Positions 619 through 6,245 of a stretch of 6,272 bases of DNA are shown here, piece by piece; position 1 is the first letter of the stretch, and every line of letters starts with the position of its first letter. The translations under genes were made by a program, and so were the position numbers. The notes beneath the pieces are model-generated. The model was not told where the DNA came from, searched no databases, and was given only the letters and a program-made list of their open reading frames with translations. The DNA lies in NCBI GenBank assembly GCA_023445955.1, contig JAEXJH010000468.1:1-6272 (forward strand). The letters are read 5' to 3'. The DNA comes from Pseudomonadota bacterium (GTDB lineage Bacteria > Pseudomonadota > Alphaproteobacteria > Caulobacterales > Caulobacteraceae).

Positions 619-1329
619 GTGATCCGCCGCATCATCGACTTCCTGACCAATATGGACGCCCGCGCCTGGCGCACGGTGGCGGTGTCGTTCGTGCTGCTCG
701 GCGGGGTTGGCGTGGTGTTCCTGTTCGGCGCGCAGCTGCTGGGCGTCAACGGCGAGACGGCGGTCGAGCATTGGCTGGGCGCGGCCAGCGGGCCGTGGGC
801 CCTGCCGATGGCCGTGGCGGCCTTCGCGGTCATGGCCTTCCTGGGCGTGCCGCAGTTCGTGCTGATCGCCGCGGCGGTCGTGGCGTTCGGGCCGTGGACC
901 GGCTTTGCCTACAGCTGGATCGGCACGCTGGTCTCGTCTCTGGTCGGCTTCTGGCTGGGCCGGGCGTATGGCGCGCGGATCCTGCGCGATTTCGCCGGCG
1001 AGGGCGTCAACAAGTTCATGCGGATGATCGGCAAGAACGGCTTCATGGCCAGCCTGATCGTGCGCCTGGTGCCCTCGGCCCCGTTCATCGTCGTCAACAT
1101 GGCCGCGGGCGTGACGCCGATGAAGCTGCGCGACTTCGCCGCCGGCACCGCCATCGGCATCGTGCCGAAGATCGCCCTGACCGCTTTTGCCGGCAATTCG
1201 ATCGTCCAGGCGATGAAGGGCGGCGGCAAGCAGCACATCGTCATGATCGCGCTGGCGGTGGTCATCTGGCTGGCCATGGGCCTGGTCAGCCGCGCCTGGC
1301 TCAAGCGCCGGGAAGAAGCGGAGGGCTAA
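619..1329 (+). CDS. TVP38/TMEM64 (VTT/DedA-like) family inner-membrane protein
   Basis: 236 residues, strongly hydrophobic. Likely membrane segments lie near residues 18-41, 62-90, 94-114, 145-164, 173-192 and 206-225, with a basic tail (LKRREE). Family features are GFWLGRAYG (110-118) and RLVPSAPFIVVNMAAG (149-164) followed by a GTAIGIVPK segment (176-184), as in TVP38/TMEM64 proteins with re-entrant loops. Relatives in the wider DedA/VTT superfamily move or scramble lipids or support membrane homeostasis; the substrate here cannot be read from sequence. The start is GTG with a strong ribosome binding site. It is divergent from the ParA-like gene and convergent with the TetR gene, overlapping it by 29 bases, so it is probably transcribed alone. 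Confidence 0.88.
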   Translation: MIRRIIDFLTNMDARAWRTVAVSFVLLGGVGVVFLFGAQLLGVNGETAVEHWLGAASGPWALPMAVAAFAVMAFLGVPQFVLIAAAVVAFGPWTGFAYSWIGTLVSSLVGFWLGRAYGARILRDFAGEGVNKFMRMIGKNGFMASLIVRLVPSAPFIVVNMAAGVTPMKLRDFAAGTAIGIVPKIALTAFAGNSIVQAMKGGGKQHIVMIALAVVIWLAMGLVSRAWLKRREEAEG

Positions 1330-1960
1330 GGCCCGCCGCGGCGTAGGTCGCCTCGCGCCACGCCCGGACGATCTCGCCGAACCAGCGCGTACGCGTGGCG
1401 TCATCCATGCCGTCGGTCTCCTCGACCCCGGCCGCCCAGGCCTCGATCACGAACGGCATGAAGGTGCGCGCCGCGTGCTGGCAGGTCGCGCGCTGAGCGT
1501 CCGAGGCGCTCTCGGGTGGCGCGACGAAGGGCTCGATCAGCTTGGTCAGCAGATCTTCCAGGGCTTCGCGCCAAGCCGAGGCCTCCGGCGCGCCTCGAGC
1601 GTCGCGGAGGAGCAGCAGCGCCAGCTTCGGATTGGCGGCGCGCGACATCTTCACCAGTCGCGCCAGGCTGGAGCCGTAGCCACCCCAGGGGCTTTCGGCC
1701 TCAGCCTCGATCGTGGCCAGCATCTCGCCGAACAAGGCGTCGATCAGGCTCTGGCGCGAGGGATAGAGCCGATAGATCAGGATCTTGGCCACGCCCATGC
1801 GGTCGGCGACATCCTGCATGGTGGCGACCTGCAGGCCCTTTTTCGAGAATGCGTCGACCGCGGCGTCCAGCACCGCCTGGCCGCGGGCGGCCTTGTCCAC
1901 CCGGGGCTTTGGCTGGCCGGGGCGGCCTCTCGGCGTGGGGACTTTCGCGACTCCGCTCAT
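1301..1960 (-). CDS. TetR-family transcriptional repressor
   Basis: 219 residues. A basic N-terminal arm (RGRPGQPKPR, 11-20) precedes the TetR DNA-binding domain at about 24-76. The helix-turn-helix reads TMQDVADRMGVAKILIYRLYPSR (in parts, 47-69), matching the usual pattern of a G-V/S-turn followed by a Y-R/F-Y-P recognition segment. The remaining ~140 residues are a helical ligand-binding and dimerisation domain with no obvious ligand clue. It is divergent from the alkyl sulfatase gene, and a perfect palindrome lies between them, so it likely represses that gene and itself and releases on binding an alkyl sulfate, alcohol or fatty-acid-like inducer (inference). The ATG has no Shine-Dalgarno before it, and the predicted promoter puts transcription start at the ATG, so the message may be leaderless. 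The 3' end runs 29 bases into the VTT gene. Confidence 0.92.
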   Translation of the reverse strand: MSGVAKVPTPRGRPGQPKPRVDKAARGQAVLDAAVDAFSKKGLQVATMQDVADRMGVAKILIYRLYPSRQSLIDALFGEMLATIEAEAESPWGGYGSSLARLVKMSRAANPKLALLLLRDARGAPEASAWREALEDLLTKLIEPFVAPPESASDAQRATCQHAARTFMPFVIEAWAAGVEETDGMDDATRTRWFGEIVRAWREATYAAAGLSPPLLPGA

Positions 1961-1966
1961 CGGGGT

Positions 1967-1994
1967 TATGTAGAATGAAACTAAAAAGTTTCAA
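1967..1994 (-). promoter_or_regulatory. Predicted TetR promoter overlapping the operator
   Basis: On the minus strand TTGAAAC (1994-1988), a 13-base spacer and TCTACATA (1974-1967) approximate the Caulobacter housekeeping consensus (TTGACGS, 10-14 bases, GCTANAWC). The -35 element and spacer fall inside the palindrome at 1976-1993, fitting autorepression. Six bases separate the -10 from the ATG at 1960, leaving almost no 5' untranslated RNA. Confidence 0.4.
1976..1993. promoter_or_regulatory. Probable TetR operator: palindrome TGAAACT-AAAA-AGTTTCA
   Basis: Perfect 7-base arms (1976-1982 and 1987-1993) around a four-base AAAA centre, in the 50-base gap between two divergent genes, one of which is a TetR repressor. 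TetR-family operators are commonly 15-20 base palindromes in this position. On the plus strand the centre also contains ACTAAAAA (1980-1987), a partial match to a Caulobacter -10 element for the sulfatase gene, so binding would block both promoters. Confidence 0.7.
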
Positions 1995-1999
1995 AATGC

Positions 2000-2005
2000 G
2001 GAGGG
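2000..2005 (+). promoter_or_regulatory. Ribosome binding site fixing the alkyl sulfatase start
   Basis: GGAGGG (core GGAGG at 2000-2004), six bases before the ATG at 2011. In-frame ATGs also occur at 1975, 1996 and 2023, but none has comparable spacing, and 1975 lies at the operator edge. Confidence 0.7.
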
Positions 2006-2010
2006 ACGAG

Positions 2011-3966
2011 ATGCGCAAGGAAATGCTGGCGGCCGGTGTCGCAGTTCTGGCGATGATCGCAGGCGGGGCGCAGGCGGGTGATCCAGCCAGCGCGATCACG
2101 GCCGACAAGCAGAAGGCGTTCGCCACGACCTTGCCGATGGCCGACCGGCAGGACTTCGAATTTGCCGACCACGGCTTCTTAGGGACTCGCGCCGACCCGC
2201 TGATCAAGCGCGCCGACGGCCAGGCCGCCTGGAACCTAGCGGCCTACGACTTCCTCAAGGGCGAGCCGCCGGCGACCGTGAATCCTAGCCTGTGGCGGCA
2301 GGCTCAGCTCTTGTCCAAGCACGGGCTCTTCAAGGTCAGCGACCGCGTCTACCAGGTGCGCGGCTTCGACATCTCCAACATTACCTTCGTGCGCGGCGAC
2401 ACCGGCTGGATCATCATCGACCCGCTGACCATGAAGGAGACGGCCCAGGCGGCGCTGGAGCTGGTCAATGACAAGCTGGGCAAGCTGCCGGTCAAGGCGG
2501 TGATCTACACCCACAGCCACAGCGACCACTTCGGCGGGGTGCGCGGCGTGGTGGACGAGGCCGACGTCAAGGCCGGCAAGGTGGCCATCGTTGCGCCGGA
2601 GGGCTTCATGAAGGAGGTCGCCGCCGAGAACATCCTGGCCGGCAACGCCATGGCCCGTCGCGCTCAGTACCAGTTCGGCATCATGCTGCCGCCGGGCGTC
2701 GAGGGACAGATCACCTCGGGCATCGGCCAGACCATCGCCAAGGGTTCGATCACCCTGATCCCGCCGACCGTCAGCATCGACCACACGGGCCAGGAGCTGA
2801 CGCTCGACGGCGTGAAGATCCGCTTCCAGTACACGCCCTCGACCGAGGCCCCGGCCGAGATGAACCTCTATTTCCCGGACCTGCGGATCCTGGACATGGC
2901 CGAGAACGCCAACGTCTCGATGCACAATATCCTGACTCCGCGCGGGGCGCTGGTTCGCGACAGCAAGGCCTGGGCCGACGACCTGACCGAGTCCATCCGG
3001 CTGTTCGGCGACGTCTCCGACACCATGATCACCAGCCACGGCTGGCCGCGCTTTAGCGGCGCGGTGGTCAAGGGCGTCCTGGCCGATCACCGCGACGCCT
3101 ACAAATACCTGCACGACCAGACGGTGCGGATGATGAACCTTGGCATGACCGGCGACGAGATCGCCGCCAGGATCGAGTTGCCGCCGACCCTGGCCAAGGA
3201 CTGGTTCAACCGCGGCTACTACGGCTCGATGAGCTTCAACAGCCGGGCGGTCTATCAGCGCTACATGGGCTTCTATGACGCCAACCCGGCCCACCTCGTC
3301 CCGTCGCCGCCGGCCGACGCCGGCAAGCGCTACGTCGCGGCCATGGGCGGGGCGGCCAAGGTCAAGGCGATGGCGAAAGAGGCGGCGGGTAAGGGCGACT
3401 ACGCCTGGGCCGCCACGCTCTTGAACCACGCGGTCATGGCCGACGACGGCGACAAGGAGGCCAAGACGCTGCTGGCTGCCGCCTACACGCAGATGGGCTA
3501 CCAGACTGAGAACAGCCTGTGGCGGAACATCTACCTGACCGGCGCCGACGAACTGCGGGGCGGGGTGCGCAAGTTGCCGGCCTCGATGACGCCGATGGAC
3601 ATGCTGGCGGCGCTGGACAGCGCCATGATCTTCGACGTGCTGTCGGTGCGCCTGAACCCCGACAAGGCCAAGGACGCCCACCTGCGGATCGTCTTCGTCT
3701 TCCCGGATCGGAACGAGCGGTTCCTGGTCGAGGTGCGCAACGGCGTGCTGGTCGCCCAGCCTGCGGGGGAGGGCGACAAGGCCGACGCTGTCTTGACCGT
3801 CGCCCGTCCCGTGTTCCTGGAGTCCCTGTTCACGGGCAAGTCGCTGATCCCGAAAATCATGACCGGGGAGGTCAAGCTGGAGGGCGATCGCGCGGCGATG
3901 GGGCGGATGACGGGATGGTTTGACGCCTTCCCCACCGACTTCCCGATCGTTACGCGCCCGAATTAA
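2011..3966 (+). CDS. Secreted alkyl sulfatase, metallo-beta-lactamase fold (SdsA1-like)
   Basis: 651 residues, close to the usual ~650-660 of class III linear alkyl sulfatases, which release sulfate from alkyl sulfates such as dodecyl sulfate. A signal peptide (MRKE, hydrophobic core, GGAQA, cleavage after A22) sends it across the inner membrane. The catalytic domain has THSHSDHFGG with H168, H170, D172 and H173, then E279 (STEAPAEM), E298 (MAENAN) and H343 (SHGWP). These are the seven positions expected for the two-zinc site, each one residue off SdsA1 numbering as I recall it. Residues ~364-520 form the helical dimerisation region typical of the family, and ~530-651 an SCP2-like C-terminal domain that may bind the alkyl chain. 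The start at 2011 is chosen for its ribosome binding site and signal peptide; the frame is open far upstream, but that is antisense to the TetR gene. Regulation is probably by the divergent TetR. The exact substrate is not provable here. Confidence 0.93.
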   Translation: MRKEMLAAGVAVLAMIAGGAQAGDPASAITADKQKAFATTLPMADRQDFEFADHGFLGTRADPLIKRADGQAAWNLAAYDFLKGEPPATVNPSLWRQAQLLSKHGLFKVSDRVYQVRGFDISNITFVRGDTGWIIIDPLTMKETAQAALELVNDKLGKLPVKAVIYTHSHSDHFGGVRGVVDEADVKAGKVAIVAPEGFMKEVAAENILAGNAMARRAQYQFGIMLPPGVEGQITSGIGQTIAKGSITLIPPTVSIDHTGQELTLDGVKIRFQYTPSTEAPAEMNLYFPDLRILDMAENANVSMHNILTPRGALVRDSKAWADDLTESIRLFGDVSDTMITSHGWPRFSGAVVKGVLADHRDAYKYLHDQTVRMMNLGMTGDEIAARIELPPTLAKDWFNRGYYGSMSFNSRAVYQRYMGFYDANPAHLVPSPPADAGKRYVAAMGGAAKVKAMAKEAAGKGDYAWAATLLNHAVMADDGDKEAKTLLAAAYTQMGYQTENSLWRNIYLTGADELRGGVRKLPASMTPMDMLAALDSAMIFDVLSVRLNPDKAKDAHLRIVFVFPDRNERFLVEVRNGVLVAQPAGEGDKADAVLTVARPVFLESLFTGKSLIPKIMTGEVKLEGDRAAMGRMTGWFDAFPTDFPIVTRPN

Positions 3967-3984
3967 CCGCGACCTGGAATAAAC

Positions 3985-4020
3985 TTGCGCCAGCTGCGAC
4001 GGATCGCGCGGCTGGCGCAA
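3985..4020. terminator. Long hairpin after the alkyl sulfatase gene (possible terminator)
   Basis: TTGCGCCAGC (3985-3994) and GCTGGCGCAA (4011-4020) are perfect 10-base arms. A T-G wobble and three further pairs (GCG 3996-3998 with CGC 4007-4009) extend the stem to 14 pairs around an 8-base loop. It begins 18 bases after the sulfatase stop and ends before the leuA leader, so it may insulate the two units. The plus strand continues ATTGCTTGCT, a poor U-tract, so it is not a textbook intrinsic terminator. It could instead protect the mRNA 3' end. Confidence 0.55.
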
Positions 4021-4025
4021 ATTGC

Positions 4026-4054
4026 TTGCTCGATTCTGGGGCGATGTGTAGAAA
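4026..4054 (+). promoter_or_regulatory. Possible promoter of the leuA leader
   Basis: TTGCTCG (4026-4032), 14 bases, then TGTAGAAA (4047-4054) is a weak match to the Caulobacter housekeeping consensus. It would start transcription near 4060-4062, at or just before the leader ATG. An alternative -35 is TTGCTT at 4022-4027. A GANTC site (GATTC, 4032-4036) lies at the -35 edge. Position between the hairpin and the leader makes some promoter here likely; the exact boxes are uncertain. Confidence 0.3.
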
Positions 4055-4061
4055 GTCCGCC

Positions 4062-4118
4062 ATGAACGTCGCGCGCGATCTGCTTCTGCTTCGGCTTATC
4101 AGCCCCTGGGCGCTCTAG
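4062..4118 (+). CDS. leuL: Leucine-rich leader peptide upstream of leuA
   Basis: An ATG opens an 18-codon frame, MNVARDLLLLRLISPWAL, closed by TAG 82 bases before leuA. Six of 18 residues are leucine, four consecutive (codons 7-10: CTG CTT CTG CTT) plus CTT at codon 12 and CTC at 18. CTT appears three times here, while leuA by eye uses nearly only CTG and CTC, so the leader seems tuned to leucyl-tRNA shortage. This is the classic design of an amino-acid attenuation leader, in which ribosome stalling on control codons changes downstream RNA folding. No good Shine-Dalgarno precedes the ATG (only GAAAG), and the predicted promoter starts close to it, so translation may be leaderless. The symbol is given by position and composition, not by homology search. 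Confidence 0.78.
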   Translation: MNVARDLLLLRLISPWAL

Positions 4119-4169
4119 GGGCCGCGCTTCGTCGCGGCCGGGCGCACAGGGGAGAGTTCCCGCAGCCCG
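4102..4169 (+). promoter_or_regulatory. leuA leader RNA with mutually exclusive hairpins
   Basis: Four structures can be drawn. A: GCCCCTGG (4102-4109) with CTAGGGGC (4115-4122), one G-U pair. B: GGCCGCG (4120-4126) with CGCGGCC (4133-4139), perfect. C: B extended by GCGCTC (4110-4115) with GGGCGC (4140-4145) and CCCCTG (4103-4108) with CAGGGG (4147-4152), about 19 pairs. D: CGGGC (4139-4143) with GCCCG (4165-4169) enclosing GGGA (4150-4153) with TCCC (4158-4161). A excludes B and C, and C excludes D. The left arms lie in the end of the leader peptide frame, so ribosome position would choose among them. No U-tract follows any stem, so the final step (Rho, pausing or leuA translation control) is open. 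Confidence 0.55.
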
Positions 4170-4200
4170 CACGCAGACACCCCATTCGACGAGTATTCCC

Positions 4201-5775
4201 ATGACTTCCGTAACGCCCGCCGCTTTCGACAAGCGCGACAACGTCGTCATTTTCGACACCACCATGCGCGACGGCGAGCAGTCGCCCGGCGCGTCGATGT
4301 CGCTGGAAGAGAAGCTGGAACTGGCCAAGATCCTCGAGGAGATGGGGGTCGACATCATCGAGGCCGGTTTCCCGATCGCCTCGAACGGCGACTTCGAGGC
4401 CGTCCGCGAAGTGGCCAAGATCGTCAAGAACTCGACCATCGCCGGCCTGTGCCGCGCCCACCAGGTCGATATCGACCGCTGCGCCGAGGCCCTGAAGCCG
4501 ACGCAGCGCGGCCGGATCCACGTGGTCATCGCCACGTCCGACCTGCACATGAAGCACAAGCTGCAGATGGAGCCGGACGCGGTCATCGACATCATCGCCC
4601 GCTCGGTGACCCACGCCCGCAACCTGCGCGACGACGTCGAGTGGTCGGCCGAGGACGCCACCCGCAGCGACCGCGAATTCCTGCGCCGCGCCACCGAGAC
4701 CGCCATCAAGGCCGGCGCCACGACGATCAACCTGCCTGACACTGTCGGCTACACCTATCCGTCCGAATACGCCGACCTGTTCAACTGGATGGTCAACAAC
4801 GTCGAGGGCGCCGACAAGGTGGTGTTCTCGACGCACTGCCACAACGACCTGGGCCTGGCCGTGGCCAACAGCCTGGCCGGCGTGCAGGGCGGCGCGCGCC
4901 AGATCGAGTGCGCCGTGAACGGCCTGGGCGAGCGCGCCGGCAACGCCGCGCTGGAAGAGATCGTCATGGCGCTGAAGGTGCGCGGCGACCGTCTGCCCTA
5001 CCAGACCGGCATCGACACCACCCACATCACCCGCGCCAGCCGCTACGTCTCGGCCATCACCGGTTTCCCGGTGCAGTACAACAAGGCCATCGTCGGCAAG
5101 AACGCCTTCGCGCACGAGAGCGGCATCCACCAGGACGGCATGCTCAAGAACCGCGAGACCTACGAGATCATGACGCCGGAGTCGGTGGGCCAGGCGCCCT
5201 CGAGCCTGGTCATGGGCAAGCACTCGGGCAGCCACGCCTTCCGCGCCAAGCTGAAGGACCTGGGCTACGAGCTGGGCGAGAACGCGCTGAAGGAAGCCTT
5301 CGGCCGCTTCAAGGACCTGGCCGACCGCAAGAAGCACGTCTACGACGACGACATCATCGCCCTGGTCGACGACGCCCTGGCGCGCGGCTCGGAGAAGATC
5401 CGCGTCTCGCACCTGCGCGTCGTGGCCGGCACCGATGGCCAGTCGGCCGAGCTGACCCTGGACGTCGACGGCGTCTCCAAGACCGCCGAAGCCACGGGTG
5501 ACGGCCCGGTGGACGCGGTGTTCAACGCCATCCACAAGATCGTGCCGCACGAAGCTGCCCTGCGCCTGTTCCAGGTGCATGCGGTGACCGAAGGCACGGA
5601 CGCCCAGGCCCAGGTCTCGGTGCGCCTGGAAGAGGACGGCCGCATCGCCACCGGCGCGGCCGCCGACACCGACACGCTGACCGCCTCGGCCAAGGCCTAT
5701 GTCAACGCGCTGAACAACCTCTTCGCCCGCAAGGAGAAGACCCGGCCCGAAGCGGCGATCGCCAGCGGCTTCTAG
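4201..5775 (+). CDS. leuA: 2-isopropylmalate synthase
   Basis: 524 residues, full length. It condenses acetyl-CoA with 3-methyl-2-oxobutanoate to (2S)-2-isopropylmalate, the first committed step of leucine synthesis, in the cytoplasm. The TIM-barrel domain (about 13-285) carries FDTTMRDGEQSPG (18-30, with R23 and metal ligand D24), the metal-binding HCHNDLG (H212, H214) and NGLGERAGNAALEE (240-253, N248). The linker has HESGIHQDG (305-313). The C-terminal domain (about 385-515) has the GDGPVDAVFNAI segment (433-444) of leucine-sensitive enzymes, so feedback inhibition by leucine is expected. The start is firm: no in-frame ATG, GTG or TTG occurs in the preceding ~75 bases, although the Shine-Dalgarno is weak (GACGAG, seven bases before). 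Expression is probably controlled by the leader upstream. No leuB, leuC or leuD is adjacent, so leuA stands alone here. Confidence 0.97.
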   Translation: MTSVTPAAFDKRDNVVIFDTTMRDGEQSPGASMSLEEKLELAKILEEMGVDIIEAGFPIASNGDFEAVREVAKIVKNSTIAGLCRAHQVDIDRCAEALKPTQRGRIHVVIATSDLHMKHKLQMEPDAVIDIIARSVTHARNLRDDVEWSAEDATRSDREFLRRATETAIKAGATTINLPDTVGYTYPSEYADLFNWMVNNVEGADKVVFSTHCHNDLGLAVANSLAGVQGGARQIECAVNGLGERAGNAALEEIVMALKVRGDRLPYQTGIDTTHITRASRYVSAITGFPVQYNKAIVGKNAFAHESGIHQDGMLKNRETYEIMTPESVGQAPSSLVMGKHSGSHAFRAKLKDLGYELGENALKEAFGRFKDLADRKKHVYDDDIIALVDDALARGSEKIRVSHLRVVAGTDGQSAELTLDVDGVSKTAEATGDGPVDAVFNAIHKIVPHEAALRLFQVHAVTEGTDAQAQVSVRLEEDGRIATGAAADTDTLTASAKAYVNALNNLFARKEKTRPEAAIASGF

Positions 5776-6245
5776 GCCGCTCGCTGCCGGCTGAACGGCC
5801 GCGTCGCCAGGATCTCGGCCCCCAGGTGCGCCTGGGGCTGAACGTCCAGACCCAACTCCCGCAGACTGTCGGCGAGCGCCCTGCGGGGCGTCTCGTCCAG
5901 CAGCGCGCTCGCGTCCACGACCAGCGTCCCGCCGGGGCGCAGCATCGTGTAGGTCGCGGCGATGACGGCGCGCGTGTCGTGCAGGGTGGGGCAGTCCAGG
6001 ACCAGCAAGACGTCGCTGCGCTCGTCGGCCGCCCCGCAGGTGGCCCGGCGGGCGGCCTCGACGCGCTGATAGCCGCGTCGCCACAGCTGGCACATGGCCT
6101 CGCCCGCGCCAGGACCGGCGACGGCCACGAAGCACAGCGGCGTGGCCTGGGCGAGGTCCAGCATGCGGTCCAGGGCGGGATTGATCCCTTCGGTCGGAAC
6201 GCCCAGCAGGAACTGGGCGGCCTGACGGAGTGGGTGGGGCGACAT
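5772..6245 (-). CDS. Small methyltransferase-like (Rossmann-type) protein, function unknown
   Basis: 157 residues. Visible features resemble a compact class I SAM-dependent methyltransferase fold: a glycine-rich VAVAGPGAGEAM (40-51) in the place of motif I, a strand DVLLVLDCP (78-86) in the place of motif IV, and LRPGGTLVVDA (102-112) as in the post-motif segment. It is shorter than most such enzymes (usually 200 or more residues), the acidic ribose-binding position is not clear, and no catalytic motif is recognisable, so it may be degenerate or non-catalytic. The ATG at 6245 has AAGG ten bases upstream (within GAGAAGG, 6262-6256). It converges on leuA with a 4-base overlap: both TAG stops come from one CTAG at 5772-5775. 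Its function cannot be assigned; coding on this strand is supported by the coherent protein fold. Confidence 0.72.
   Translation of the reverse strand: MSPHPLRQAAQFLLGVPTEGINPALDRMLDLAQATPLCFVAVAGPGAGEAMCQLWRRGYQRVEAARRATCGAADERSDVLLVLDCPTLHDTRAVIAATYTMLRPGGTLVVDASALLDETPRRALADSLRELGLDVQPQAHLGAEILATRPFSRQRAA

Follow-up and report, generated by a model that had tools for sequence, protein, structure and literature searches.

What does an 18-codon, leucine-rich reading frame do in front of leuA in a member of the Caulobacteraceae, and could it place that gene under leucine control? The frame lies on the plus strand at positions 4062-4118 of the window, by which we mean the whole 6,272-nucleotide stretch of DNA that was analysed, and its predicted translation is MNVARDLLLLRLISPWAL. 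Codon by codon it reads ATG AAC GTC GCG CGC GAT CTG CTT CTG CTT CGG CTT ATC AGC CCC TGG GCG CTC TAG, with the TAG stop at 4116-4118, so that six of the 18 codons are leucine codons and the peptide ends in WAL*. It is set between the end of an alkyl-sulfatase-like metallohydrolase gene at 3966 and the ATG of leuA at 4201, which leaves 82 bases (4119-4200) between the leader and its presumed target. The latter (4201-5775, plus strand) encodes a 2-isopropylmalate synthase that scores above the cut-offs of NF002087 and TIGR00973 and carries the Pfam LeuA_dimer domain. The first-pass annotation had described an 18-codon frame here with six leucines, four of them consecutive, ending 82 bases from leuA, and the sequence agrees exactly. 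Elsewhere in the window, a minus-strand gene for a TetR-type regulator stands head to head with the plus-strand metallohydrolase gene, possibly its target (1301-3966 for the pair), and a minus-strand frame of 157 amino acids at 5772-6245, without an NCBIfam or Pfam match, overlaps the end of leuA by four bases.

An ATG-initiated frame of 8-40 amino acids with LLLL and at least five leucines arose in 15 of 20,000 dinucleotide shuffles of 3967-4200; the frame by itself is therefore unusual without being decisive, and it is comparison with relatives that decides. From 593 leuA loci of named genomes we took the best 80; our script found the element in 56 of these and no element in 24, the latter being 19 Pelagibacteraceae loci and five others. 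The Pelagibacteraceae behave uniformly, in that all 19 of their loci among the 80 (within L054-L080) are without the element. A Caulobacteraceae set of 84 further loci spans LeuA identities from 97% to about 60%. The script recognised the element in 28 of the loci L081-L110, the other two (L095 and L096) beginning at a contig edge, and a covariance model matched 34 of 34 in L187-L220 and 20 of 20 in L315-L334, the weakest at 17 bits; in this last group a leucine run ending in CTTA or CTAA stands at the element in 13 of the 20, and seven of the most distant loci have no such run. For the counts given below, 35 of 221 loci without a script match were dropped and the remaining 186 were thinned to 166 nonredundant loci; nine of the 35 (L161, L164, L165, L169, L170, L172, L178, L185 and L205) match the model and had been missed by the script.

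The element extends well beyond the family. Across 289 genomes sampled from the class, the model has matches in 76 (E up to 0.001, one per genome), and every one of these has a LeuA-type gene downstream on the same strand. The LeuA type of the window is present in 134 of the 289 genomes (E up to 1e-150), and 72 of these are model matches. When 60 of the 62 model-negative genomes were inspected, 18 had a version that could be recognised by eye, several with changed arms, and 42 had none that the eye could find, which brings the total to 90 of the 134 genomes holding this LeuA type. The leaders of close relatives read MTVARDLLSLRLISPWAL or MNVARQLLSLRLTTPWAL, and among the 17 members of a close clade there is hardly any variation in the leader's 3' part or in the bases immediately following it; distant relatives have leaders that end, for example, in LLLLIRP*, LLLLSRP* or LRLIVP*. 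Alignment of the leuA upstream regions of relatives, which had been proposed as a check on the leader, thus bears it out, with related leaders in the Caulobacteraceae and widely in the Alphaproteobacteria. This comparison of sequences gives strong support to a leader before leuA that codes for leucine, given that its frame, its leucine run and above all its CTT codon are kept in relatives.

The codons of the leucine run (CTG CTT CTG CTT CGG CTT, 4080-4097, plus strand), which are presumed to do the sensing, are themselves distinctive. It had been noted that half of the leader's leucine codons are CTT, a codon that leuA hardly uses, and the count is indeed three of six in the leader versus none of 37 in leuA, and, in two further genes of the plus strand, one of 54 and none of 22 (Fisher p = 0.0016 versus leuA, 0.0003 versus the three genes pooled). 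The bias recurs across loci: towards the end of the leaders, 450 of 891 leucine codons are CTT, versus 211 of 5587 in the accompanying leuA genes. The last leucine codon of the run and the A that follows it form a CUUA (4095-4098, plus strand), after which come four bases and then the helix described below. A search of the 166 nonredundant loci that required CTN at this last position ahead of the helix gave CTT in 163 and CTA in three. Counted blind to that position, CTTA occupies it in 156 of 163 loci, and in 98 of 101 loci that had been retrieved by leuA alone; we prefer the latter figure because some of the 163 loci came by way of a model that itself contains CUUA. We also considered a fusion of the leader with LeuA by way of a +1 frameshift at CUU-A, an idea prompted by the open +1 frame of the window, and rejected it, as the phase is spread 69/50/47 over the 166 loci.

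The first-pass annotation made no mention of three further features, namely a hairpin, its fixed spacing from CUUA and the placement of the promoter. The last codons of the leader form the 5' arm of the predicted hairpin (arm 2, 4103-4115, plus strand), which pairs with a 3' arm that ends in CAGGGG (arm 3, 4140-4152, plus strand), the pairs being 4103-4108 with 4147-4152 and 4110-4115 with 4140-4145, around an inner stem-loop at 4120-4139 (plus strand; 4120-4126 with 4133-4139). The stretch 4103-4153 folds at -37.2 kcal/mol (z -3.85), which none of 200 shuffles equalled, and the mean z of the hairpin is -4.40 in 56 Caulobacteraceae and -4.20 in 110 other nonredundant loci. The whole region upstream of leuA folds like its shuffles (z -0.9). 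An alignment of 55 diverse elements, from which L022, L048 and L056 were omitted and similar elements thinned, and whose rows were collected by requiring CCC(C/T)T, gives the order CUUA, a four-base gap free of indels, CCCCU, a variable middle and AGGGG. In many Caulobacteraceae this appears as GGGG-CUUA-NNNG-CCCC, a form that is not general, and the pairing of the bases before CUU with arm 2 that it might suggest was rejected (mean z -0.19 over 75 loci).

Changes on both sides of a pair were seen at six of the 11 consensus pairs of this alignment. Such changes occupy 26 cells, where shuffling gives 5.9 on average, and none of 500 shuffles, which ignore relatedness, reaches the covariation score; the number of pairs so changed is reached by 13 of the 500, and sliding the partner by -3 also gives six such pairs. 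In a set of 185 loci, both-side changes are more numerous than in any of 500 shuffles at 10 of the 11 positions, where pairs 1-6 are paired in all rows by design of the search and only the kinds of pair are informative. Variants of the 5' arm (CCCCUGA, CCCCUAG, CCCCUAA) are matched by changes in arm 3, and strongly divergent arms still pair, as in CCUCUGAG/CUCAGAGG (L232, L258), CCCCAAACGG/CCGUUUGGGG (L246) and CCCAAAGUAUU/AAUGCUUUGGG (L266). Since arms of other sequence still pair, it is the pairing that has been kept more than the sequence. In 109 of the 166 loci, the stop of the leader directly follows a proline codon within the 5' arm, and the arm includes the stop in most loci outside the Caulobacteraceae; in the remaining 57, as in the window, the stop comes 13-28 bases past the start of arm 2. 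The leu, trp and his attenuators have leader families in Rfam, and among the eight matches to Rfam (release 15) in the window up to E = 10, none lies within 3967-4200.

When CUU occupies the A site, counting from the first base of the P-site codon puts the first paired base of arm 2 at +12, the point at which a helix lying ahead comes up against the ribosome's mRNA entrance. CUU would then mark the last position at which a starved ribosome leaves the helix intact. Judged from known footprints, the edge of a ribosome with CUU in its A site would touch the first pairs of arm 2, and hence a stall at one of the earlier leucine codons may be the effective one.

Immediately upstream of the leader, we predict a promoter whose -35 box TTGCTC (4026-4031, plus strand) begins with TTGC or TTGA in 52 of 55 Caulobacteraceae loci, with a 17-base spacer in 49 of these 52, and whose TA-rich -10 box TAGAAA (4049-4054, plus strand) has its end 7 or 8 bases short of the leader's A in 49 of the 55. 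From this spacing, we predict that transcription begins at, or immediately beside, the A of the leader's AUG (4061-4062, plus strand), and a C or T precedes the ATG in 54 of 56 loci. A pattern blind to reading frame finds this promoter plus an ATG in 54 of 56 Caulobacteraceae loci and in none of 56 upstream control stretches, and all 54 of these promoter-proximal ATGs are in frame with the CTT of the leucine run. The spacing between promoter and AUG thus leads us to predict that the leader frame is leaderless in the Caulobacteraceae, a family in which Caulobacter crescentus has 375 mapped leaderless mRNAs according to PMC4117421. A start downstream of 4062 had been held to speak against the leader; the predicted start comes close to this limit, falling at about 4061-4062, on the AUG itself. 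An alternative in-frame ATG at 4044 would give 24 codons, and it lies at the predicted -10 box and 5' of the predicted start site. A scan with the E. coli-type consensus called no promoter before the leader.

An operator-like palindrome, GCAA-N5-TTGC (4017-4029, no strand assigned), has its right half within the -35 box and is kept in 43 of 56 Caulobacteraceae loci, always with a spacing of 5, and in none of the 56 upstream control stretches. With its likeness to an operator, it raises the possibility that a repressor or activator acts on leuA as well. An inverted repeat, TTGCGCCAGC ... GCTGGCGCAA, occupies 3985-4020, directly 5' of the leader promoter and 3' of the alkyl-sulfatase-like gene.

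We suggest that the leader frame and the predicted hairpin at 4103-4152 together act as a leucine-sensing attenuator, in which a starved ribosome that waits at the CUU codons would not disturb the hairpin, so that leuA stays on, and a ribosome at the stop codon would melt the hairpin and turn leuA off, probably via Rho; we consider this the probable reading, with appreciable room for error. The transcript would start on or next to the AUG, and ribosomes would load at its 5' end without the help of a Shine-Dalgarno site. When leucine is scarce, they would wait at the leucine codons, the last of which is so placed that the helix five bases on would sit at the mRNA entrance and need no unwinding, and the hairpin left intact by the stalled ribosome would protect against Rho. 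When leucine is present, the ribosome would end inside or just past arm 2 and keep that arm single-stranded, and Rho would load on the opened leader and spacer. The geometry leads us to expect that the helix forms only upon a ribosome stall upstream, and we infer that leuA is controlled by leucine through the leader. The half of the proposal that concerns the hairpin and the stalled ribosome draws on comparative evidence; the Rho half is an extrapolation.

The alternative that fares best, although we consider it unlikely, is a classical transcription attenuator, in which arm 3 would alternate between arm 2 as antiterminator and a downstream region 4 as part of an intrinsic terminator. The order of parts is that of the textbook, with leucine codons, an arm 2 with or near the stop codon, and arm 3, and single loci do have strong pairing of arm 3 with downstream sequence (L013, z -4.8; L029, -3.6; L053, -2.7; L035, -2.4). 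In L013 and L029, the partner of arm 3 can be a second copy of the arm 2 sequence further downstream. Some lineages may therefore use a competing fold, but over 75 loci the pairing of arm 3 with downstream sequence is at the level of chance (mean z 0.01), and the stretch from arm 3 to leuA folds like its shuffles (mean z -0.20 in 56 Caulobacteraceae, -0.01 in 110 other loci). Moreover, the longest T-run of the spacer is at most four bases in 163 of the 166 loci, and no terminator-like site was found on the plus strand at 3960-4260 of the window. The first-pass annotation had called the frame an attenuation leader. That part of the claim which concerns a leucine-coding leader stands, reinforced by a conserved hairpin that overlaps the leader's end; the intrinsic terminator that such a name implies is absent, with no U-tract and generally no competing downstream hairpin beyond chance. 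The element thus fails as a textbook attenuator by its missing terminator and is nonetheless likely to work like one.

Since there is neither a general competing hairpin nor a U-tract, Rho loading is the simplest off-state for the attenuator that we propose, and the spacer between hairpin and leuA (4153-4200, plus strand), itself without a U-tract, is the candidate region on which Rho would load. Caulobacteraceae spacers contain 39% C and 19% G, versus 38% and 26% at the start of leuA, and they are weakly folded (z +0.62); spacers outside the family contain 30% C and 26% G, with neither the depletion of G nor the weak folding. The G-poor and weakly folded Caulobacteraceae spacer would suit Rho but is not richer in C than leuA, and the case that it makes for a Rho step is weak.

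A second alternative takes the leucine run out of its role as main sensor, and has free leucine stall the ribosome at a Pro-stop in arm 2 by nascent-peptide arrest of the TnaC type, so that the helix stays open. A Pro-stop does lie inside arm 2 in the 109 loci mentioned above, and TnaC also ends in Arg-Pro-stop. However, the leader of the window ends in WAL*, its stop and those of 57 of the 166 loci come 13-28 bases past the start of arm 2, the proline is dictated by the CCCC of that arm, and the CUU bias points to the reading of codons; we find arrest of this kind improbable. Similarly, we give little credence to a third alternative, that the hairpin is an RNA bound by a protein or ligand, with the leader merely keeping ribosomes off or on and translation of the leucine codons being secondary. 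The near-invariant CUUA and the CCCC/GGGG of most loci would be in keeping with a binding site, and in Streptomyces the mutation of leucine codons did not act as in classical attenuation, according to the account in PMC1262725. Yet the arms can change entirely with pairing kept (L246, L266, L258), different arms stand before leuA genes of another subfamily (TIGR00970, see below), and the CTT codon bias is strong. Finally, a chance frame without function, for which one could cite the similar frames in 15 of 20,000 shuffles and the unremarkable fold of the whole region (z -0.9), has next to no probability, being already contradicted by the conservation of frame, codon, position and helix.

Judged from published descriptions, the nearest known system to the leucine-sensing attenuator proposed here is the leuA leader of the actinobacteria and the LEU element associated with it. 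The leuL1 leader of S. lividans, MRFGLLLLSCRGEGL, is described in PMC8079986 as leaderless and without a typical Rho-independent terminator, and the alphaproteobacterial element resembles it as a short leader with a leucine run before leuA, predicted here to be leaderless, and likewise without a Rho-independent terminator. The LEU element is described in PMC1262725 as a pseudoknot whose base stem pairs the leucine run with the Shine-Dalgarno box of leuA, and a regulator-bound RNA has been proposed for it by Seliverstov et al. Unlike the element so described, the helix here begins after the leucine run and ends at 4152, 48 bases before the leuA ATG, and with its different partners we have not filed it as a LEU element. 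Among the plasmid leuA records (60 of 413 listed), one Streptomyces leuA-like locus (L222) has no leucine-run leader; a leuA-like gene on a Rhizobium tropici plasmid (L224) has no leader either, and a Paracoccus record (L223) has a leader with other arms.

Other known leaders share some of these features. With the classical leu, trp and his attenuators the element has in common a run of codons for the end product and a helix into which the leader's end extends and which is expected to form only on a ribosome stall; it differs from them in having neither a U-tract nor a general competing terminator hairpin. The trpL attenuator of Sinorhizobium meliloti, whose transcript begins at the leader ATG and which has a transcription terminator (PMC7298713), is likewise an alphaproteobacterial leader with a start at its ATG, which is predicted in our case, but it serves tryptophan and has a terminator. 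The Caulobacter ilvBN/ilvIH leader is another leader for branched-chain amino acids; as described in PMC4117421, however, it has isoleucine and valine codons and a rho-independent terminator, and the searched main text of that paper does not mention leuA. The tnaC and mgtL leaders are Rho-dependent attenuators, and as with them, translation of the leader would decide on the access of Rho without a U-tract; the signals are different, and the role of Rho is inferred in our case. No paper on an alphaproteobacterial leuA leader was among the literature matches listed, though an earlier description is possible (e.g., in Vitreschak et al. 2004) and priority is uncertain.

One of the model matches, L166, stands before a second kind of LeuA, in that the gene downstream belongs to the TIGR00970 subfamily (730.7 bits, cut-off 697.4), which is the LeuA subfamily of C. 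glutamicum; the leuA of the window is of the TIGR00973 kind. Genes of the TIGR00970 type were found in 81 of the 289 class genomes. We scanned 30 such loci without regard to frame, taking the CTTA or CTAA with the most preceding leucine codons (at least two of six) and the best helix at offsets of 2-15. In 23 of the 30, the leucine run ends in CTTA (once in CTAA), and in these 23 the best helix begins 4-8 bases after the codon, in 21 of them 4-6 bases, with arms that are mostly unrelated to those of the window. These loci point to a general plan that consists of a leucine run, CUUA, about five bases between codon and helix, and a hairpin. The CTTA leaders of the TIGR00970-type alphaproteobacterial loci (L285-L314) lie about 100-310 bases from leuA, often with a CGA codon before the CTTA, and some of these loci have two CTTA leader sites. 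The occurrence of a leuA of this subfamily behind the element in alphaproteobacteria is a further likeness to the actinobacterial system.

More tentatively, and as a possibility on which we would not yet rely, we suggest that these leaders form a terminator-less class of attenuator across the Alphaproteobacteria, common to two distant LeuA subfamilies. A ribosome decoding the near-invariant CUU would dock against a hairpin 5-6 bases ahead, each would hold the other in place, and Rho would be kept off with no need for a competing fold; the leaderless leuA leaders of the actinobacteria may be the same ancient device.

The leader and hairpin have no match in the Rfam library that was searched, and the frame is too small for ordinary gene calls. 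They would offer a compact case for asking how attenuation can run without an intrinsic terminator, and would raise the questions of why a single rare codon, set at a constant distance from a helix, almost never changes and how two distant kinds of one enzyme came to have such a leader in front of them. If the leucine-sensing attenuator proposed here is correct, leuA in much of the class, Caulobacter included, would be under an RNA switch that reads leucine.
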